Position numbers and translations under genes: made by a program
NCBI GenBank assembly: GCA_027450145.1
Contig: DAIDKH010000034.1
Location: 1 to 45,453 of the forward strand
DNA: 45,453 nt
Reading direction: 5' to 3'
Source: Chthonomonadaceae bacterium
Lineage (GTDB): Bacteria > Armatimonadota > Chthonomonadetes > Chthonomonadales > Chthonomonadaceae
In this document: positions 3,055-39,549 of the stretch, one piece after another
Layout of the letters: each line of letters begins with the position of its first letter
How positions within the stretch are numbered: the first letter of the stretch is position 1
The notes under the pieces: model-generated
What the model saw: only the letters and a program-made list of their open reading frames with translations
Database searches by the model: none
What the model was told of the DNA's origin: nothing

Positions 3055-3907
3055 CTGCGAAGCGTCGTTCCATTCGCTTAAAGTTCACTGCCCCCACAAG
3101 GAAAACACCCACGGCCGCCAAGATGGAATAGGTAACATACTCCACAGGGAATGCACCAACTCCAAGCAGCGACCACCTAAATGCTTCCAGTAGACCGGAC
3201 AATGGATTTAACATAAAGAACGTGTAGGTATGCGGCGATACCTTTTCCTGTACCATCTGAAGCGAATACGCAACAGGGCTTGCATACATCAGAAAGTTAA
3301 GGAGAACCGGCACAATGTACTGCACGTCTCTATAAGATACCATAAGCGCACTGGTAATTAAGCCGCATCCCACTGCCAATAGCATGATAGCCGCTAGCCA
3401 CACTGGCAGAAGAAGCAGATGCAATCCAGGATGAACGTGGTAAGCAATAATTAGCACGACCATCATGGCCAAGGCGACGAGAAAATCTATTAGCGCTGAA
3501 AATATGGTGGATATTGGTAGCACTAGCCTCGGGAAATATACCTTGGAAACCAGCTGGGTGTTTTGTAGCAGGCAAGTACTTGCACGTGAAAAGACGCCGT
3601 TGAAGGCGCCCCAACCCAACTGCCCGGCGAATGCGAATACCAGGTATGGCAACCCACCAGGCGCAGTAAGGCCCGCAACCTTGCCAAACACGAACGTCAT
3701 AATGCCAGCTGCTAGCAACGGCTGTAGAACCACCCAGATGGCGCCGAGAGCAGTCTGGCGATACCGTAACTTCACATCGCGACCGGCAAGGGTGATCAGC
3801 AGGTCTCTAAACTGCCATATCTCCTCAAGGTGCAGGTTAGCCCAGCCAGTTTCTGGCTTTAGTGTGACTAACGACTTGGGTTCGTTGGAATTCAGGGCGA
3901 CTGTCAA
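3044..3907 (-). CDS. polysaccharide ABC transporter permease (Wzm/ABC-2 type)
   Basis: Inner-membrane subunit of an ABC-2 exporter for polysaccharide. The 287-residue protein shows a cytoplasmic N-terminus with the hallmark '[23 protein letters not shown]' before the first membrane helix (split here: LKYRQ-like box near 45, GAIWVVLQP near 54), about six hydrophobic segments, and 'NPLSG..EAFRW' near residue 235, as in Wzm/TagG proteins. It starts with TTG inside a TTGA overlap with the epsI stop; AAAGGAAAG lies about 8 nt upstream. The ATP-binding partner (Wzt/TagH) normally sits next to the permease but is absent from this operon. Confidence 0.9.
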
Positions 3908-4536
3908 CTACTCTTTCCTTTCGCCACCAGAGCATTAACATCTGGCATGATCTGGTTAATAAACGACTTCAACATAGGCACACTGGTCGGTGTATCGTCA
4001 GCTGTGAGGCGAACCACAAGCGAGCCTCCCTGCTCCCCGGTAATTAGACGGCGCAGTGCGTACATCTTTTCCAGGTAGGCAAGTCCCATTCTACTGCCGA
4101 GTGCGAACCCGCCGGGAAAAAAGTACATAAAATCCTGTTTGGCTCCATCTCGCTCCGCGGTAATGAAGCGGATCTGCTGGTGATCTTGATACCAGGCCGT
4201 CTCCTTCGAGAGCGTATAACCGTGGGCAGGAAAGCAGACATTTGGATCGTGGAAGTCTGCATAGCTTGGCCCAGTAATTAGGCACAGGAAAATCTCCTTG
4301 CCCGCTGGGTTTCGATATACCCTCTGCAGGAGTTTCGCGGTAGGAATAGCCTGCTGTATAACCGGATCCACTGGTACGTTCGCCCCCGATACCCACTGAC
4401 CAACAACCCTGGGGAATGTATCAATAGGCAGCGGCTTAGGATGCGCGTACTTAAGCCTGGGCAATGCGTGCTGCGCCGCAATACCACCTAATAGTGCAGC
4501 ACATACTAATCCTGAGAAAAGCGTGTCGTTTCGCAT
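3904..4536 (-). CDS. epsI: EpsI family exosortase-associated protein
   Basis: A 210-residue EpsI/DUF3485 protein. A longer frame continues upstream, but the ATG at 4536 has a strong GGAAGGAGAC 6-10 nt before it and begins a typical N-terminal anchor (MRNDTLFSGLVCAALLGGIAAQHALP). The rest matches the EpsI pattern: 'FPRVVGQWVSG', 'RVYRNPAGKEIFLCLITG', 'FHDPNVCFPAHGYTL' (the conserved His/Cys stretch) and a Tyr-Phe-Phe 'DFMYFFPGG' strand. EpsI proteins act with exosortases at the membrane in processing and surface attachment of sorted proteins; the exact reaction is not settled. The start overlaps the exosortase gene by 31 nt. Confidence 0.85.
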   Translation of the reverse strand: MRNDTLFSGLVCAALLGGIAAQHALPRLKYAHPKPLPIDTFPRVVGQWVSGANVPVDPVIQQAIPTAKLLQRVYRNPAGKEIFLCLITGPSYADFHDPNVCFPAHGYTLSKETAWYQDHQQIRFITAERDGAKQDFMYFFPGGFALGSRMGLAYLEKMYALRRLITGEQGGSLVVRLTADDTPTSVPMLKSFINQIMPDVNALVAKGKSS

Positions 4537-5435
4537 CCCAGTCTCCTTCCAACTGATACAAATAGAATGCACGAAAGAGCTATAACAAAATAATCGGCGT
4601 ATTCGTGCGCTACCGCCTCCACATGTGCGCCGTACCACGTGGCAAGCGCCACCAAACCGGCGATGCGCACGATGTTGGCAGCAAGTGCAATGGGGAAACT
4701 CACAAGGATTAGCAGCAGCCACTTACCCTTAGGCAGGTTGAAGAACCATCCGTAAAGAACGGCGAAGCAAAAGAATGCAATGAGCTTTTTAAAGCCGCTG
4801 CATGCTTCGGCAACGTTTAGTGCCATGCCTGGAACCTGCAGAACGCTACCTTCTCGAACGATAGCAAACCCGAAGAACTGCATAATCCACTGCGCCCCAA
4901 TTGTACTAATTCGTTGCGCCATCACGTCAGTTGGCGTCAAGATAGGCTCTGGAATCGGCGCAGCAAACAGCAGAAATGCAATGGGGAACCTCAGCTTACG
5001 CCACAATGGCTTACCGTGCAGGGCTATTACCGCCCCACTAATGAGAACTGGTAAAGCCGCCATGGCTATGAAGCGAATTCTCAGATACCAACCTGCCCAC
5101 TCGATCACTACGCCGGCGACTGCCAGCCAGAAGCCAATAATCGAAGGGCTTTTAGCAGTACAGCGCACCTGTTGGTGTAACAGTATGATAAGGCCCAAAC
5201 TAATCGGCCCTATCAATATACAAAAGGAGTAGGTCTCCTGAGAAAGCCAATATGGTATCGTCTCTGCAAGCACAGGAATATACAACAGAACGATCAAAGC
5301 CGCTACGAGCCAAGCAGTGGCCGGCCAAGCTCGAAGATCCTCTAAAATGGGCGCCAGCCACGACATAGCAGTGGGAGATTGTGGATGGATGGCTTGACCC
5401 AGGTCCTCTGGAACCCCTGCGTTATTACTGCTCAT
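4506..5435 (-). CDS. exosortase (transmembrane transpeptidase-like protease)
   Basis: A polytopic 309-residue membrane protein with the exosortase triad in order: Cys212 in EACSGFKKL, Arg257 in 'FPIALAANIVRI' and His277 in AHEYADYF. The preceding 'VREGSVLQVPGMALNVAEACSG' has the diagnostic G-x-x-L-x-V-x-A-C-S-G form. Exosortases recognise PEP-CTERM-type tails and process secreted proteins, and they often sit in exopolysaccharide loci, as here. The subtype is not clear by eye. No gene in the window shows a PEP-CTERM-like tail, so its substrates are elsewhere. It starts at an ATGA overlap with the glycosyltransferase stop. Confidence 0.9.
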   Translation of the reverse strand: MSSNNAGVPEDLGQAIHPQSPTAMSWLAPILEDLRAWPATAWLVAALIVLLYIPVLAETIPYWLSQETYSFCILIGPISLGLIILLHQQVRCTAKSPSIIGFWLAVAGVVIEWAGWYLRIRFIAMAALPVLISGAVIALHGKPLWRKLRFPIAFLLFAAPIPEPILTPTDVMAQRISTIGAQWIMQFFGFAIVREGSVLQVPGMALNVAEACSGFKKLIAFFCFAVLYGWFFNLPKGKWLLLILVSFPIALAANIVRIAGLVALATWYGAHVEAVAHEYADYFVIALSCILFVSVGRRLGCETTRFSQD

Positions 5436-6556
5436 TGAGGGTTAGTCCTATTTGTAAGTATTGCTTTATCACGGTCATTAAAATAATTATCGATTATCGA
5501 CATCATTTTTGAGCGAAATACCGATGTGTCAAACTGCTGAGCATGCGAGCGAATTAACTGGGGATTAAACCTTGTGCATTCAAGCGTCACCATAGCTTCG
5601 CACAGCGAATCAACTGTCTGTTCTCCAAAAAGTATTCCCGATATTCCATCCCGCTGAGAGTCGAGGGCACCGCCGGCACCGTATGCAATTACCGGTCTTC
5701 CGCAGGCGTTGGCTTCAACGGGTGAGATGCCAAAGTCTTCCTGGCCAGGCATAATATACGCCTTGCATTCGGCCATCAACTTCGTCAACTGACCATCGGG
5801 TACACGTCCCAAAAACTCCACAGTGGGACCAGCGAGAGACCTAAGGTATTCGTCCTGTCTCCCACTCCCCACAACCTTCAGTGGACGTTTTAGGGTATTG
5901 CATGCCTGTATGGCAAGATCCAGGCGCTTATAAGGAGCAAATCGCGCTGCCACCAAGTAGTATTCACCCACGGTATCTGAAATGTTGAAACGAGTAGTGT
6001 CAACGGGTGGATAGATGATGTCACAACTTCTACGATAGTACTTCTGTATGCGGTCTGCCACAATGGACGAATTTGCAATATGCATATCGACTCGCAGCTG
6101 AGCAACTGCATCCCACGTTCTAAGTTTATGCAGTGTTGGAGCGAGTAGAGTACGCAGAACTGTTGGCATGTTTTCGCGCTCAAGGTAAGCATGGTGCATC
6201 CAGCCATACCTCATAGGCGTGTGAACATAGCAGAGGTGAAGCGAGTCGGGTCGTGTAATTACACCCTTGGCGAACGCCGAGGAAGAGCTTATCACGAGGT
6301 CATACTCAGACATATCAAACGACTCAAATGCAAGCGGGTAGAGTGGCAGGGCAACGCGATGCGAGATTTTCTTTAGCGGAAGCTTCTGCATGAAACTGGT
6401 TCGAATATCCCAGCTTCTCATTGCGGCCGGCATGATTTCGGGTGAGTAAACGGACGTATAGATAGGGGCCTCCGGGAACATGGAATGGAATTCTTCCACC
6501 ACCTTCTCTGCCCCACCGTTCTGCACCAGAAAATCGTGTGCTATCGCAACTTTCAT
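5432..6556 (-). CDS. GT4 family glycosyltransferase (WbaZ-like)
   Basis: A cytoplasmic retaining glycosyltransferase with the GT-B fold, 374 residues. The true start is the ATG at 6556 (MKVAIAHDFLV), with GGAGAT 4-9 nt upstream; the frame's extra 10 residues upstream lie in a hairpin. 'NGGAEKVVEEFHSMFPEAPIYT' near residue 12 is typical of WbaZ-like mannosyl/rhamnosyl transferases. The donor-site motif is EDFGISPVEANACGRPVIAYG near residue 282, with both Glu of the E-x7-E pair. Acceptor and sugar are unknown. The dTDP-sugar genes of the operon suggest, but do not prove, a deoxysugar in the product. Confidence 0.92.
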   Translation of the reverse strand: MKVAIAHDFLVQNGGAEKVVEEFHSMFPEAPIYTSVYSPEIMPAAMRSWDIRTSFMQKLPLKKISHRVALPLYPLAFESFDMSEYDLVISSSSAFAKGVITRPDSLHLCYVHTPMRYGWMHHAYLERENMPTVLRTLLAPTLHKLRTWDAVAQLRVDMHIANSSIVADRIQKYYRRSCDIIYPPVDTTRFNISDTVGEYYLVAARFAPYKRLDLAIQACNTLKRPLKVVGSGRQDEYLRSLAGPTVEFLGRVPDGQLTKLMAECKAYIMPGQEDFGISPVEANACGRPVIAYGAGGALDSQRDGISGILFGEQTVDSLCEAMVTLECTRFNPQLIRSHAQQFDTSVFRSKMMSIIDNYFNDRDKAILTNRTNPQ

Positions 6557-17671: not shown

Positions 17672-18334
17672 ATGGCAACTCCTTCTGTTGAGGATTATCT
17701 CAAGGCAATTTATAAGGTCGAACTCGAAGCTGATGCGGTCACCGCCCAGGACATTGCCGCAAAACTTCAGGTCTCTGCAGCAGCGGTTAGTAAGATGCTA
17801 AAGCGACTTCAGGAGTTGAGGCTCGTTGACCATACACCCTATCAGAATATCACCCTAACTTCAAGTGGTCGTAAGATGGCACTGGAGATTGTGCGACACC
17901 ACCGGCTGCTAGAGTTGTACCTAGTAGAGGCATTGGGATACAGCTGGGATGAAGTACATGTGGAAGCCGAACGGCTGGAACATCATATTAGTGAAGAATT
18001 TGAACAGAGAATTGACACATTAATGGGCCATCCCACTCGTTGTCCTCATGGCGATCCAATACCCGACAAGGAAGGAAATGTCGCCTCCATCACGCGCTCG
18101 ACGCTTGCCACCGAATCACCTGGACGGCTCGTGGTAAGTCGCGTGAGCGATGCCGATGCTTCACTTCTCCGCTTTCTGAAAAACGAAGGATTGTTTCCAG
18201 GTACTGATATCGAGTTAATCGAGCAGGAACCGTTTGGTGGCGCATTTTTAGTACGCTTGGAAGATCGCATCGTCCGCATTGCTCCCGATGCAGCAAGGCA
18301 GATATTTGTCGAGCCTGCAGAGGTGTCACGATGA
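17672..18334 (+). CDS. mntR: DtxR/MntR family metal-dependent transcriptional regulator
   Basis: 220 residues in three parts. The first is a winged helix-turn-helix (about 1-70; PSVEDYLKAIYKVE, 'SAAAVSKMLKRLQ' recognition helix). The second is a dimerisation/metal domain (about 75-140; 'RHHRLLELYLVEALGYSWDEVHVEAERLEHHI', then 'CPHGDPIPD'). The third is a C-terminal FeoA/SH3-like domain (about 145-218). Asp8 and the His/Glu residues of the second domain match known metal ligands. Mn is inferred from the Nramp gene that overlaps its stop by four bases. Iron (IdeR-like) is the alternative, because the third domain and the Cys-x-His-Gly stretch resemble DtxR/IdeR more than the short MntR of Bacillus. 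Confidence 0.85.
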   Translation: MATPSVEDYLKAIYKVELEADAVTAQDIAAKLQVSAAAVSKMLKRLQELRLVDHTPYQNITLTSSGRKMALEIVRHHRLLELYLVEALGYSWDEVHVEAERLEHHISEEFEQRIDTLMGHPTRCPHGDPIPDKEGNVASITRSTLATESPGRLVVSRVSDADASLLRFLKNEGLFPGTDIELIEQEPFGGAFLVRLEDRIVRIAPDAARQIFVEPAEVSR

Positions 18335-19668
18335 GTAACAGCCAGCGCGATCAGTCGGAGTTGCTGCTCCAAACGCCCGAAGGGCACACTTTGAGCCTTG
18401 CCGACGTTCATGGCACAATAAGTGTGCATAATTCGGGGACGTTTTTTAAGCGATTGTTGTCCTTCGTAGGGCCAGGGTATCTTATTGCGGTTGGTTACAT
18501 GGACCCTGGGAACTGGGCCACAGACATCGCAGGAGGAGCGCAGTACGGGTACCTGCTGCTCTCTGTTGTAATGATGTCTAGCCTTCTAGCAATCTTTCTG
18601 CAGGCACTCTCCGCAAGATTGGGTATCGCAGCTCGTCGTGACCTGGCACAGTGCTGCGCACAAGCGTATTCAAAGCCAATACGTAAGTTTCTATGGATTT
18701 CAGCAGAAATTGGGATTGTTGCCTGCGATATTGCTGAAGTTTTAGGCGCAGCAATTGCGCTCAATCTCTTATTTCACATTCCGCTAATCGTGGGTGTCGT
18801 AATCACCTCACTGGATGTGTTACTTGTACTGGCGCTTCAAAACCGAGGTTTCCGCTGGATTGAGGGTCTTGTCATACTGCTTATTGGTGTGATGGTCGTT
18901 GCCTTTTCAGCGGAGATCTTCATGGCTCACCCTGCTTTAGGGCAGGTGATTGCGGGCTTTATGCCCCACTGGCAGATTGTAAGGAACAGCGCCATACTCT
19001 ATCTTGCACTCTCCATACTAGGTGCTACGGTAATGCCGCACAATCTGTACCTACATTCTGCACTGGTGCAAACTCGAAAGGTAGAGGATTCTGATCAGGC
19101 GCGTAAGGACGCGGCGCGCATGGTTGGCGCGGATAACTTCATTGCACTTATGATTGCTCTCTTCGTGAATGCGGCCATCTTAGCGCTTGCTGCTGCCACC
19201 TTCTATCCCGGTCACAAAGACATCGGTGACATACAGTCTGCCTTTAAGATGCTCACACCTATCTTGGGAACATCACTTGCTGCCCCACTATTCGCCGTAG
19301 CATTACTTGCCAGCGGCCAAAATTCGACGCTGACGGGCACTTTGGCAGGACAGGTAATTCTGGAAGGTTTCACTTCCTTTCACATCGCGCCCTGGTTGCG
19401 AAGGCTTATCTCCCGTCTGCTAGCAATCGTGCCGGCCATCGTTGCGATTGCACTATGGCAAAGCGATGGTTTAGACAAATTGCTCATATTCAGCCAGGTT
19501 GTGTTGAGCATTCAACTGCCGATGGCCCTCATTCCTCTGGTTCAATTCACAGGCGACAAAAAAATCATGGGTCCGCTGGTAGTAAATGACTGGGTGAAAT
19601 ATGCTGGGTGGTTAACTGCAATAGTCATTACTGGTCTGGACGTCTACATGGTGATCACATCTCTGTAA
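18331..19668 (+). CDS. mntH: Nramp family divalent metal (Mn2+) transporter
   Basis: A proton-coupled Mn/Fe importer of the inner membrane with 445 residues and about 11 TM helices. Diagnostic motifs: DPGN at 58-61 in 'YMDPGNWATDIAGGAQYGY' (metal-binding Asp/Asn of TM1) and 'GATVMPHNLYLHSALVQTR' near 235 (the MPH of TM6). The first ~45 residues are a soluble extension longer than in E. coli MntH. The ATG lies in an ATGA overlap with the regulator gene, so import and its repressor come from one message. The gene ends before a bidirectional terminator. Confidence 0.93.
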   Translation: MSNSQRDQSELLLQTPEGHTLSLADVHGTISVHNSGTFFKRLLSFVGPGYLIAVGYMDPGNWATDIAGGAQYGYLLLSVVMMSSLLAIFLQALSARLGIAARRDLAQCCAQAYSKPIRKFLWISAEIGIVACDIAEVLGAAIALNLLFHIPLIVGVVITSLDVLLVLALQNRGFRWIEGLVILLIGVMVVAFSAEIFMAHPALGQVIAGFMPHWQIVRNSAILYLALSILGATVMPHNLYLHSALVQTRKVEDSDQARKDAARMVGADNFIALMIALFVNAAILALAAATFYPGHKDIGDIQSAFKMLTPILGTSLAAPLFAVALLASGQNSTLTGTLAGQVILEGFTSFHIAPWLRRLISRLLAIVPAIVAIALWQSDGLDKLLIFSQVVLSIQLPMALIPLVQFTGDKKIMGPLVVNDWVKYAGWLTAIVITGLDVYMVITSL

Positions 19669-36458: not shown

Positions 36459-36986
36459 TTGAGACTTTCATACACATTAGTCACAGTTATCTTACTAAGT
36501 ACTTGTAGTTGCATGGTGTGTTTTGGTGAAACGCCAGCAGCTCTACAGCGCGACATCAATCGTCGTGCTGCAGTAGTCGACTCGCTACGCCATAGTTTAC
36601 TAGACGGCCCGGGGGAGCGCACTCCAGGGGAATCTGTACAGCAATATCTAACGGGATTCGTAAAACTTCGCGCCAAGGAGACGTCAGCAGCCTACCGTAA
36701 ACGCGTCAAATACTATGTTACAGCAGCCCTTAACACCTCGACCGTTCTCAAGGGCTTGGCTATACCAGCACCTGGGGCACACGATGAACCCTACAGTACT
36801 GCTGCCTGGAAGGAGATTGTTAAGCTACAGCAATTCCTTCCTCGAAGTGCAAAGCGACTGGGAAGCGCCTTCAACTTAACTGCGCATACGGGCAGGCCCC
36901 TCTCTCCGGCGCCGCTGATAACGTTAATCAACCTGGAACTAGCGGCCTACCAGGCATTACGTGATGCACGACCCAACTTAGGGTGA
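36459..36986 (+). CDS. small secreted protein of unknown function
   Basis: 175 residues starting with TTG (AAAAGGG about 12 nt upstream, which is far). A signal peptide is plausible: LRLSYTLVTVILLSTCSCMVCFGETPA, with three Cys in its h/c region but no standard lipobox. The mature part appears all-helical (ALQRDINRRAAVVDSLRHSLLDG ... VQQYLTGFVKLRAKETSAAYRKRVKYYV ... AWKEIVKLQQFL) with a C-terminal 'LITLINLELAAYQALRDARP'. I do not recognise a family. It is divergent from citrate synthase and 350 nt upstream of the repeat-protein genes. Confidence 0.6.
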   Translation: MRLSYTLVTVILLSTCSCMVCFGETPAALQRDINRRAAVVDSLRHSLLDGPGERTPGESVQQYLTGFVKLRAKETSAAYRKRVKYYVTAALNTSTVLKGLAIPAPGAHDEPYSTAAWKEIVKLQQFLPRSAKRLGSAFNLTAHTGRPLSPAPLITLINLELAAYQALRDARPNLG

Positions 36987-37336: not shown

Positions 37337-38146
37337 TTGACAATGCGAAGACGTTCATTTTGGGCGAGTGGCGCCATGCTAGCACTATGTATGTCGGCTT
37401 CTACTGGCTCGGTATTGGCGCAGTCACCAACCAAACGACCAGAAGTAGGGCTGCTTGGAGTGCCGCTCCTTTCTACGTTCCGCACAGTACTTAAGAAGTT
37501 TGGGCAGCCTAACATCATTCAGCCAGGTGTTCCGAATGCATCCGCACTTCCTGCCCCCCCGACATCGCAAAACAACGGGGCCTACGGGCGCAGAGGCGGC
37601 GGCCTCCCGGGCTTACCGGGGATGTCCGGTATGCCTGGTATGCCTGGTATGCCCGGAGGACCTGGGAAGCGCATGCCCGGCATGCCCGGTATGATGGGTC
37701 CTGGTGGGCCGGGAATGATGGGTCCAGGGGGTCCTGGGATGATGGGTGGTCAAGGTGGTTACAACGGTATGAGCGGTTCGCTCAATACCGATGAAGCACC
37801 CAACCTCACCACCTGGTGGTATAACTTCCCTCAGCAGGGCATCCACTACTCGTTCCTCTTCAACCAACAAGGACGTGTGATCCAGATCCAGGCGTATGGG
37901 GATAAGCCACAACCGCATATGGTAAACCCACGAACCGCTGAGGGAATAACTTTTGGCTCCACATTAGGCACCGTTGTTAAGAGATACGGTTGGAGCAACA
38001 GCGGCACAAACAATGGATCTTACGTGCAGTTGGAGTATGGTTTACACAACCGCATCGCCTTCCAGTTGAGCGATAACCACGTAGTGGGTATTGTCCTGGG
38101 GGTAGTGGAAACTCAAAAGCCCCAATACAGCACGAACAACGGCTGA
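37337..38146 (+). CDS. secreted Gly/Met/Pro-repeat protein, shorter paralog
   Basis: 269 residues with a signal peptide (MTMRRRSFWASGAMLALCMSASTGSVLAQ). AGGAGG (37326-37331) is 5 nt before the TTG at 37337 and 11 before an in-frame ATG at 37343; either may be used. A globular half-repeat (GLLGVPLLSTFRTVLKKFGQP, near 38) is followed by a low-complexity block (about 88-140: LPGMSGMPGMPGMPGGPG then GMMGPGGP units), and then a beta-rich part whose end repeats the first motif (GITFGSTLGTVVKRYGWS, near 203). So one repeated domain is split by the Gly/Met/Pro block. The function is unknown; the next gene is its paralog, 50 nt downstream with no terminator between. Confidence 0.75.
   Translation: MTMRRRSFWASGAMLALCMSASTGSVLAQSPTKRPEVGLLGVPLLSTFRTVLKKFGQPNIIQPGVPNASALPAPPTSQNNGAYGRRGGGLPGLPGMSGMPGMPGMPGGPGKRMPGMPGMMGPGGPGMMGPGGPGMMGGQGGYNGMSGSLNTDEAPNLTTWWYNFPQQGIHYSFLFNQQGRVIQIQAYGDKPQPHMVNPRTAEGITFGSTLGTVVKRYGWSNSGTNNGSYVQLEYGLHNRIAFQLSDNHVVGIVLGVVETQKPQYSTNNG
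37590..37755 (+). repeat. Gly/Met/Pro coding repeat, block 1
   Basis: Tandem GMPGMPGM units turn into three copies of a 24-nt repeat encoding MMGPGGPG. Copies are nearly identical at DNA level (CC-T-GG-T-GGG-CC-... variants at third positions). Confidence 0.85.
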
Positions 38147-38196
38147 TATTCTTGTTCGGTGCCTGCCTGGTGTAGCCACCGATGTAGGAGAGAGAC

Positions 38197-39483
38197 ATGC
38201 AGAACGGAACGCTCATATTCGGGAGTGCCGCCTCAGCCGTGCTGATGTTGGCAGCAAGTATAGGACCGGCTTCGGCCGTCGCGCCACACGGTAAATGGCG
38301 CCACGCGCCCACTCACCGCAAATATGCGTCTCACCGCTACGTTAGCCCTATTGAGAAGAGCCTGTTGGGCATTCGCGTCCTCGACACTTATCGCGCAGTG
38401 CTAGACAGGTATGGTGAGCCGTACAGAATATATCGCGCAGGTGAAATGCCTGTGCTCCAGTATGCCTACAACAACTTAGGTGAGAATACCGGAGCGGTTA
38501 CTGGCGTTGGAAACTCCGCCGGCCAAAATTCCGGAACGTTCGGTGCACCCGGCAAAGGGGGCAACTACGGCCGTCCAGGAGCGCCCGGCATGATGGGCCC
38601 AGGTGGGCCTGGAATGATGGGACCAGGTGGACCAGGTATGATGGGCCCGGGTGGACCAGGTATGATGGGACCAGGTGGGCCTGGGGGCCCTCCAGGTATG
38701 GGCAACTATGGCAGCAGCATGCCGGGTATGCCTGGTGGACCGGGAATGATGGGCCCAGGTGGGCCTGGTATGATGGGTCCAGGTGGTATGGGCGGTTACG
38801 GCAACCGAATGTCTGGTATGCCCGGTGGCCCGGGTATGATGGGCCCGGGTGGACCAGGTATGATGGGTCCGGGCAGCAAGGGGGCGCGATTCCCGGGCAT
38901 GGGTGGCGGCCTGAGTGCAAATGGAGCCAACAACCAACAGCCAACATTTGCCGAATCCGGTGGCTTCCAGTGGGTATATTACTACCCCAAACAACAGAGA
39001 GCGTGCACCATTCTCTTCAACAAAGACAAACGAGTAATCCTCATTGCCGAGAGTGGGCGCGACAACGGAATTCCTACCAGCCGGGGTGTCAACCTGGGCT
39101 CGCCGGTAATGCAGGTTTACGAAAAGTACGGCTGGCCGGATAGCATTGAGCAGCAAGGGGATACTATTGCACTGCGGTACAATCTGACGCGACATGCGCA
39201 ATTCAATATTCTTTCGCGCACTAATCGCGTTGTTGATATCACGGTGTTCCTCACCGAAAACCAATTCATTACATTTGAGGCCACATCTGGCGCCGGCATG
39301 GCCGGCCGCTCTGGAATGGGGCCCGGTATGATGGGACCAGGCGGGCCCGGTATGATGGGTCCAGGTGGGCCCGGTATGATGGGACCAGGCGGGCCCGGTA
39401 TGATGGGACCAGGCGGGCCTGGTATGATGGGTCCGGGTGGCAGAGGTATGATGGGTCCTAACGCGGGTGGTGGCGGTGACTAG
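38197..39483 (+). CDS. secreted Gly/Met/Pro-repeat protein, longer paralog
   Basis: 428 residues; signal peptide MQNGTLIFGSAASAVLMLAAS...ASA; GGAGAG 5-10 nt before the ATG. After a basic, His-rich stretch comes the first half-repeat (LLGIRVLDTYRAVLDRYGEPYRI, near 57). A long low-complexity region follows (about 118-235) with eight GPGGPGMM-type units in three clusters, then the beta-rich part (WVYYYPKQQRACTILFNKDKRVILI) and the second half-repeat (GVNLGSPVMQVYEKYGWP, near 297). A C-terminal tail of about seven more units runs nearly to the end. The first protein lacks this tail. The period is 8, not 3, so it is not collagen. It is secreted and possibly surface or matrix material; the function is unknown. 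Confidence 0.75.
   Translation: MQNGTLIFGSAASAVLMLAASIGPASAVAPHGKWRHAPTHRKYASHRYVSPIEKSLLGIRVLDTYRAVLDRYGEPYRIYRAGEMPVLQYAYNNLGENTGAVTGVGNSAGQNSGTFGAPGKGGNYGRPGAPGMMGPGGPGMMGPGGPGMMGPGGPGMMGPGGPGGPPGMGNYGSSMPGMPGGPGMMGPGGPGMMGPGGMGGYGNRMSGMPGGPGMMGPGGPGMMGPGSKGARFPGMGGGLSANGANNQQPTFAESGGFQWVYYYPKQQRACTILFNKDKRVILIAESGRDNGIPTSRGVNLGSPVMQVYEKYGWPDSIEQQGDTIALRYNLTRHAQFNILSRTNRVVDITVFLTENQFITFEATSGAGMAGRSGMGPGMMGPGGPGMMGPGGPGMMGPGGPGMMGPGGPGMMGPGGRGMMGPNAGGGGD
38574..38874 (+). repeat. Gly/Met/Pro coding repeat, block 2
   Basis: Eight near-identical 24-nt units (encoding GPGGPGMM) in clusters of four, two and two, separated by GNYGSS and GGYGNRMSG spacers. Slippage-prone. Confidence 0.88.
39310..39465 (+). 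repeat. Gly/Met/Pro coding repeat, block 3
   Basis: About six to seven tandem 24-nt units encoding MMGPGGPG at the 3' end of the longer gene, more uniform than the other blocks. Confidence 0.88.
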
Positions 39484-39508
39484 TCACAACCTGCAGTAGT
39501 GAATAATG

Positions 39509-39549
39509 AAGGATGTTCCGCAACTAAGTTGTTGTGGAACATCCTTTTT
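39509..39549 (+). terminator. intrinsic terminator after the repeat-protein genes
   Basis: AAGGATGTTCC (39509-39519) and GGAACATCCTT (39536-39546) form an 11-bp stem, followed by TTTTTG. Confidence 0.92.

Follow-up and report, generated by a model that had tools for sequence, protein, structure and literature searches.

A widespread family of exported Armatimonadota proteins with glycine-rich loops, putative scaffolds or adaptors of the cell envelope

A stretch of 45,453 nucleotides from a Chthonomonadaceae bacterium (contig DAIDKH010000034.1 of assembly GCA_027450145.1, hereafter the window) contains two adjacent genes, designated P1 and P2, whose products belong to a protein family that is near-universal in Armatimonadota and has no Pfam or NCBIfam name. 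The globular domain of each protein is split by a long insert rich in glycine (Gly), proline (Pro) and methionine (Met), which in the window includes exact units of the peptide GPGGPGMM. The reading that we tentatively favour, at somewhat less than an even chance, is that these inserts are disordered, cross-associating loops of non-enzymatic scaffold or adaptor proteins of the cell envelope; it is from the comparisons below that we infer location, role and loop association.

P1 (37343..38146, + strand) encodes an exported protein of 267 amino acids with orthologues in relatives, and P2 (38197..39483, + strand) encodes its exported paralogue of 428 amino acids, as judged from an AlphaFold2 (AF2) model and a tree. 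The re-read open reading frames (ORFs) are separated by 50 bases. By eye, both N-termini were signal-peptide-like and without a lipobox, the stretch in P1 being MRRRSFWASGAMLALCMSASTGSVLAQ. A first-pass annotation, made from the letters alone, had placed a secreted pair with a low-complexity block at 37337-39483; the pair, its signal-peptide-like starts and the block were confirmed, as was the end coordinate, but P1 more likely starts from the ATG at 37343 than from the alternative TTG at 37337. A degenerate-unit search located 11 exact GPGGPGMM units, two in P1 (37697..37744, + strand) and nine in P2, with five in the P2 insert (38596-38667, 38752-38775 and 38842-38865, + strand) and four in its C-terminal tail (39334-39429). 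Arrays of 24 nucleotides were reported by Tandem Repeats Finder (TRF) at 37684-37747, 38575-38681, 38734-38786 and 39319-39458 (matches of 82-94%), with a further array in the P1 insert at 37628-37653. All 11 occurrences of the degenerate 24-nucleotide unit in the assembly (168 contigs, 4.14 Mb) fell in P1 or P2, and a reversed-pattern control gave none in the 4.14 Mb genome. Using greedy ORF calling, a Gly-rich low-complexity stretch of at least 30 residues was present in two of the 36 ORFs of the window, namely P1 and P2. The units had been described as near-identical, which holds for the peptide and not for the DNA, since their third codon positions vary freely. A third-position count (53 vs 8 and 8) proves little because the units were picked by peptide likeness, and the fair test is the comparison of congeners given below.

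AF2 models were based on 19 sequences for P1 (the window plus loci from a short-pattern scan) and on a thinner alignment of 9 for P2. The P1 core had a predicted local distance difference test score (pLDDT) above 90 and the order H-E-(insert)-E-E-E-H-E-E-E-E, the insert accounting for 85 low-confidence residues. As modelled, the globular part of P1 and P2 is one domain of two alpha-beta4 repeats, and the insert is located inside the first repeat, in P1 between beta1 and beta2. On the + strand, P1 comprises the first part of repeat 1 at 37448..37525 (helix and beta1; H19-26, E31-34, pLDDT >90), the predicted disordered Gly/Pro/Met insert at 37541..37795 (residues 40-124, pLDDT <50, with the TRF arrays), the second part of repeat 1 at 37808..37897 (beta2-beta4; E129-135, E140-146, E151-158) and repeat 2 at 37964..38101 (helix and four strands; H181-188, E193-196, E201-205, E211-216, E219-226). 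P2 follows the same plan, to which it adds a beta-hairpin ahead of the insert and a tail modelled as disordered; also on the + strand, the helix and beta1 of its repeat 1 together with the hairpin absent from P1 occupy 38389..38511 (H35-42, E47-50, E56-61, E67-75), followed by the insert at 38515..38937 (residues 77-217, pLDDT <50), the remainder of repeat 1 with repeat 2 at 38962..39249 (E226-233 to E314-321) and the C-terminal Gly/Pro/Met tail at 39259..39480 (TRF and AF2). Among complete pairs, tails measured 48-83 amino acids in 11 of 11 P2 proteins and 3-15 amino acids in 11 of 11 P1 proteins. The annotation had proposed a half-domain motif occurring twice per protein, with a block between the two copies and a second block as tail of the longer protein. 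Both copies were found, the second one of P1 ending in YGWS without Pro, and the tail block is confined to P2, but the model places the first block within the first repeat rather than between the two.

Comparison of the P1 model with known structures by VIA-align gave 4ygt (Z 12.1, root-mean-square deviation 4.0, 125 residues aligned), 4ifa (Z 11.3) and 4h0a (Z 11.2), well above most lower rows, among which 9j9w reached Z 8.1. The same three headed the list for P2 (Z 11.2, 10.5 and 9.9), with Escherichia coli yfeY (2qzb) fourth at Z 9.6, and the single Foldseek match at E <=1e-3 was again 4ygt (E 1.3e-4). 4ygt is Bacillus subtilis YjgB, of DUF4309 (PF14172), which has two alpha-beta4 repeats as in P1 and P2; it is 17% identical to P1, and its entry title mentions no long Gly-rich insert. 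The other two are secreted proteins with CAP_assoc_N (PF14504), found in CAP/SCP proteins of Bacillales, which shares the fold and was the family most often touched by sequence, with weak profile matches in 7 of 44 family members (best E 0.012). DUF4309 was matched by 3 of the 44 (best E 0.01). PF14504 scored 11.3 bits, short of its curated cut-off of 29.3, and profile A1 searched against PDB sequences gave 7txx (E 0.003), a match that is hard to interpret. We consider the fold to be shared but, as all family profile matches fell far below cut-offs, withhold membership of either family. Unlike CAP-associated proteins, neither P1 nor P2 matched a CAP/SCP domain, and the long insert in repeat 1 sets them apart from CAP_assoc_N proteins. 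BLIP-type beta-lactamase inhibitor proteins, which also have tandem alpha-beta repeats, overlapped partially (Z 4-6), mostly with one repeat aligned, too low for a claim of kinship. Searches of P0001 and P0002 against NCBIfam and PHROGs returned weak, chance-like matches only.

The search for the half-domain in other genomes that the annotation had suggested revealed the breadth of the family. P1 as sole query matched in 49 of 61 relatives, and a 44-row profile (E 1e-5) in 222 of 251 Armatimonadota genomes, usually with a single copy; good genomes alone gave 171 of 179, and by genus the count was 131 of 146. A scan of contigs with a short pattern, which reaches close relatives only, gave 18 loci, all taxon-named ones being Armatimonadota/Chthonomonad. 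A phylogenetic tree placed a single P1/P2 split before the genera of the window's taxonomic family (support 100/98), with separate duplications outside it at loci L059/L060 and L057. One locus was left out as a duplicate (L028, of L054) and another, L035, was left out of the table of inserts, as its motif was unmatched, and of the tree.

Inserts could be tabulated for 63 of 64 measurable proteins and ranged from 53 to 207 amino acids (median 135), with Gly at 16-61% (median 35%), Pro at 7-24% and Met at 0-21% (median 10%). Length varied between species as had been predicted, the P1 insert having 95, 134 and 146 amino acids in the window and two congeners. Met made up 5% or less of 21 inserts, and four had none, from which table Gly-rich disorder at this site is a constant feature and Met is not. 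It had been suggested that evenly spaced pairs of Met bind Cu(I) or Ag(I) or scavenge oxidants. In the window's genus all 22 Met of the P2 insert are kept between genomes G000 and G001, and Met-rich loops recur in distant lineages (21% Met in f16, for example), but Met is not retained across genera, where the globular domain persists with Met freely replaced, and we reject metal binding as a general role. Within the window's genus such free replacement was not seen; Met was conserved like Gly and Pro, not better, in G000 and G001 (Met kept at 11/13 and 22/22 insert positions and at 11/12 tail positions; Gly, in the same order, at 26/29, 61/62 and 26/27), and a Met-dependent property may therefore be confined to that genus. 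No copper gene was recognised by eye among the neighbouring ORFs of the window. Altogether the metal or oxidant role seems very improbable. A collagen-like fibre protein is just as improbable: Gly-X-Y runs exceeded shuffles (p <=0.01) in 12 of 63 inserts, reaching 13 triplets, but the other 51 had no triplet excess, the dominant unit has a period of 8, which breaks the triplet register, and no long uninterrupted Gly-X-Y tract was present. That the period breaks the register had been noted before and is correct for the octapeptide part; elsewhere it is not, since P1 has a run of 8 triplets and P2 one of 9 at the longest.

Comparison of congeners indicated that the insert peptides of the window's genus are constrained. 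Between G000 and G001 the P1 core was identical at 97 of 97 positions with a proportion of synonymous differences (pS) of 0.84, and inserts were 79-92% identical with pS 0.66-0.73; among seven neighbouring genes compared with the P1 core, FtsH was the best conserved (97.9% identity). Over the genus as a whole synonymous sites were saturated (pS 0.66-0.92), with identities of 94-100% for the P1 core, 90-98% for the P2 core and 74-92% for inserts and tail, and the ratio of nonsynonymous to synonymous rates (dN/dS) of inserts was 0.026-0.132 where computable. In congeners of another genus (G007 and G014) inserts were 52-57% identical with dN/dS 0.25-0.34, and just 2/16 and 2/7 aligned insert Met were retained. 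Judged by these two comparisons, the insert is strongly constrained in the window's genus and less so in the other. Insertions and deletions were frequent between congeners (8-54 gap columns).

Sharing of short peptide words between P1 and P2 was analysed, together with codons, in those genomes of the window's family that had complete pairs (11 of 17), the others including truncated or missing partners; sets with one genome per genus covered 8 genera (5 for PilQ, 7 for Sec1 and 7 for the PKD-like protein introduced below). Median core identity was 50% for P1-P1 and 43% for P2-P2 between genera and 35% for P1-P2 within a genome, indicating an old divergence of P1 from P2, but the inserts point the opposite way. 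Their 5-mer sharing had a median of 0.155 (mean 0.216) between P1 and P2 of one genome, vs 0.029 between P1 proteins of different genera, and with one genome per genus the means were 0.180 and 0.022; permutations reached the own-genome value in 0 of 10000 cases in one run and 1 of 10000 in another. The best partner of P1 was its own P2 in 7-8 of 8 genera at word lengths 4-7, and dipeptide-preserving shuffles never attained the own-genome value (0/300, k=5). Identity at four-fold degenerate sites within shared peptides was 0.32 in the window vs 0.26 expected, with 0.31/0.28, 0.35/0.27, 0.30/0.29 and 0.28/0.44 (observed/expected) in four other genomes, and the longest exact DNA shared by P1 and P2 was 10-45 nucleotides (median 13), vs 13-16 to other genera. 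As four-fold sites are near random in most genomes, recent copying of DNA does not explain the sharing, and recent gene conversion was rejected as its general cause, with the exception of G016. Outside the window's family, sharing at the duplicated locus of G031 was 0.242, with shuffles up to 0.152.

Similar words were found in further exported proteins. The looser pattern MMGPG had 27 matches in the window's genome, 15 in P1 and P2, five in pilN, four in an exported protein of 547 amino acids, one in an exported PKD-like protein, one in a membrane-like protein of 84 amino acids and one, by chance, in an enzyme. In other genomes of the window's family, local motifs were restricted to the pair in G011 (5/5) and G016 (4/4), G013 had no matches, and in G005 four of five lay in the pair and the fifth in a pilN gene belonging to a pilM-N-O operon. 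In pil operons compared across 13 genomes, PilN has a Gly-rich periplasmic insert and a tail, and PilO and PilP have tails; in the window's genome the Met/Gly/Pro-rich inserts or tails belong to PilN (4728-5735), PilO (3837-4721) and a PilP-like lipoprotein (3057-3830), all on the - strand of L183. The 547 amino acid protein (L196, 2623-4263, - strand) has a MMGPGGMPGAPGGY-rich block near its C-terminus and an orthologue in L200, and the PKD-like protein of 367 amino acids (L199, 1798-2898) has an insert of the P1/P2 kind; its neighbouring genes, named by eye, we take to be RNase Y- and YmdB-like.

Own-genome sharing was compared with that between genera using 5000 permutations for each of 28 protein pairs, with counts uncorrected, and PilN and the PKD-like protein had been chosen from the motif matches in G005 and G000, so that only other genera are independent of the choice. 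Own and between-genera values were 0.089/0.022 for P1-PilN (reached by 0/5000 permutations), 0.089/0.030 for P2-PilN (5/5000), 0.065/0.024 for P1-PilO (47/5000), 0.094/0.040 for P2-PilO (2/5000), 0.054/0.015 for P1-PilP (1/5000), 0.081/0.024 for P2-PilP (0/5000), 0.050/0.021 for P1-PKD (8/5000), 0.078/0.028 for P2-PKD (11/5000) and 0.179/0.041 for PilN-PilO (1/5000). Sharing of the pair with these four proteins within a genome was thus about 2-4 times the level between genera. No dipeptide-preserving shuffle at k=5 (0/300) reached the values of P1-PilN, P2-PilN, P2-PilO, P1-PKD or PilN-PilO, and for P2-PKD three of 300 did.

These matches raise the question of whether P1 and P2 could be periplasmic accessory parts of type IV pili, tied to PilN, PilO and PilP by matching loops. 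Words of the pair recur in the periplasmic part and tails of PilN and PilO from the same genome, and the sole G005 match beyond the pair is pilN; however, in the genomes compared pilMNOP(Q) and the pair are on different contigs or far apart, the ancestral neighbour of the family gene is dnaG-rpoD (see below) rather than pil, and Pil loops were compared within the window's family only. Since the PKD-like and 547 amino acid proteins, which have no known pilus role, share the dialect, a role restricted to the pilus is weakened, and judged from sequence we regard it as doubtful. A broader version, also unlikely, albeit a little less so, is that a genus-specific loop dialect extends over at least five or six envelope proteins (P1, P2, PilN, PilO, PilP and the PKD-like protein), whose disordered Gly-rich inserts would stay alike within a genome and change together from genus to genus through sequence-specific low-complexity contacts, building a matrix in the periplasm or at the surface, with P1 and P2 as its most repeat-rich and phylum-wide parts.

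Under the scaffold or adaptor reading, P1 and P2 would be periplasmic or cell-surface proteins, with the globular domain docking on a partner and the inserted loops serving as flexible spacers that weakly self- and cross-associate and may contact matching loops of other envelope proteins, for example those of PilN and PilO, which serve in type IV pilus alignment. GPGGPGMM would then be a genus-local loop dialect kept by selection on the peptide. The extended matrix suggested in the first-pass annotation is possible and close to this. A number of results weigh against the scaffold or adaptor reading. Sharing between P1 and P2 was weak in G009 (0.02, none), G006 (0.08) and G014 (0.07), and the four-fold sites betray recent DNA exchange in G016 (0.85/0.39) and, mildly, in G007 (0.58/0.44) and G002 (0.45/0.35). 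The duplicated loci of G029 and G024 did not exceed between-genome sharing, the values for independent duplicates in two f3 genomes being 0.059 and 0.042. P2-PilP was marginal against dipeptide-preserving shuffles (8/300 at k=5, 40/300 at k=7). The exported, Gly-rich PilQ gave no clear signal with P1 (3334/5000) or P2 (230/5000; own 0.037 vs 0.016), nor did Sec1, a second secretin-like protein that is likewise exported and Gly-rich, with P1 (4320/5000), P2 (2501/5000) or PilN (4040/5000), so that sharing does not extend to every exported loop. Finally, likeness of loops within a genome could reflect mutational habits that its genes have in common, or gene conversion in the distant past.

The last point leads to near-neutral Gly-rich spacers, shaped by slippage and occasional gene conversion at sites where exported proteins tolerate it and by the mutational or compositional habits that one genome shares, which we consider rather unlikely but the strongest of the alternatives. 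The wide variation of insert length (53-207 amino acids) and motif, the common insertions and deletions between congeners, the recent DNA exchange in G016 and the many exported proteins of the genome with such loops all fit with it. In the regions analysed, Gly-rich stretches occurred in 54 of 107 proteins with an N-terminal hydrophobic stretch vs 24 of 148 without, but this is no census, because the regions had been chosen for such proteins; by eye, most of the 24 belong to the pair or are Pil proteins whose start had been missed, and the cytosolic PilM has a short Gly-rich stretch. Word sharing beyond composition and dipeptide shuffles argues against neutral spacers, and a purely mutational cause is disfavoured because the insert peptides of the window's genus are conserved at saturated synonymous sites and because two Gly-rich exported proteins of these genomes share no words detectably. 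Old conversion followed by constraint may have been the origin of the likeness.

The gene neighbourhood was compared in 41 loci, 31 of them outside the window's family, including 20 hand-picked for family spread and three that belong to a single genus. The family gene was directly followed by dnaG, on the same strand and at -6 to 171 bases, in 28 of the 31, nearly always with rpoD behind it (L050, L052-L055, L057, L059-L061, L111-L114 and L116-L130); in L056 rpoD was at the expected place with dnaG undetected, and L058 and L115 had neither. In the window's family dnaG was within the compared flanks of 0 of 10 loci, and in G003 it is at 0.72 Mb vs 2.21 Mb for the pair. A gene for a TPR-polysaccharide deacetylase (PdaB/NodB-like) was directly upstream in 13 of the 41 loci, which links the family to the envelope; in L053, L055, L059 and L060 the order was deacetylase, family gene, dnaG, rpoD. 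For this deacetylase the window's genome offers domain matches of 34-36% only, and no close copy. The plainest history is that this order is ancestral and that the family gene was later transposed and duplicated in the lineage of the window. Elsewhere the family gene occupies the slot before dnaG in the macromolecular synthesis operon (rpsU-dnaG-rpoD), the difference being that an exported protein is encoded in that slot; members from the window's family are no longer part of the operon. Gene content before dnaG is described as varying between groups in the accessible part of one account (PMC2824700), and the accessible part of the Fimbriimonas genome paper gives dnaG and three rpoD without mentioning the family gene (PMC4072686).

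Upstream of the pair, a gene for an exported protein of 175 amino acids (36459..36986, + strand) is a neighbour kept in nine loci of the window's family, with no match in Pfam and NCBIfam searches. An intrinsic-terminator-like hairpin (39508..39547, + strand) with 17 pairs and a T run begins 25 bases after the stop codon of P2, one such site being found vs 2.2 expected in shuffles. A NIF3-like gene was 3' of the pair in three genomes (L048, L049 and L051). About 18 kb from the pair, at 17672-19665, a DtxR/MntR-like regulator is followed by an Nramp-like transporter, the only metal genes recognised in the window when its ORFs were read by eye. A plasmid search gave no match. In the open literature searched, no paper was found for GPGGPGMM, alone or with methionine-rich, or combining Armatimonadota, type IV pili and low-complexity; Armatimonad with glycine-rich returned only unrelated plant papers, and nothing on the gene was found in the literature on DUF4309/CAP_assoc_N or on the dnaG-rpoD operon in Armatimonadetes.

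An unnamed protein retained by 171 of 179 good Armatimonadota genomes beside dnaG-rpoD represents a gap in the biology of the phylum. If the dialect reflects protein contact, the family would provide a natural test of sequence-based recognition among disordered loops of bacteria, with many genera as replicates and with the cultured relatives Chthonomonas calidirosea and Fimbriimonas ginsengisoli available.

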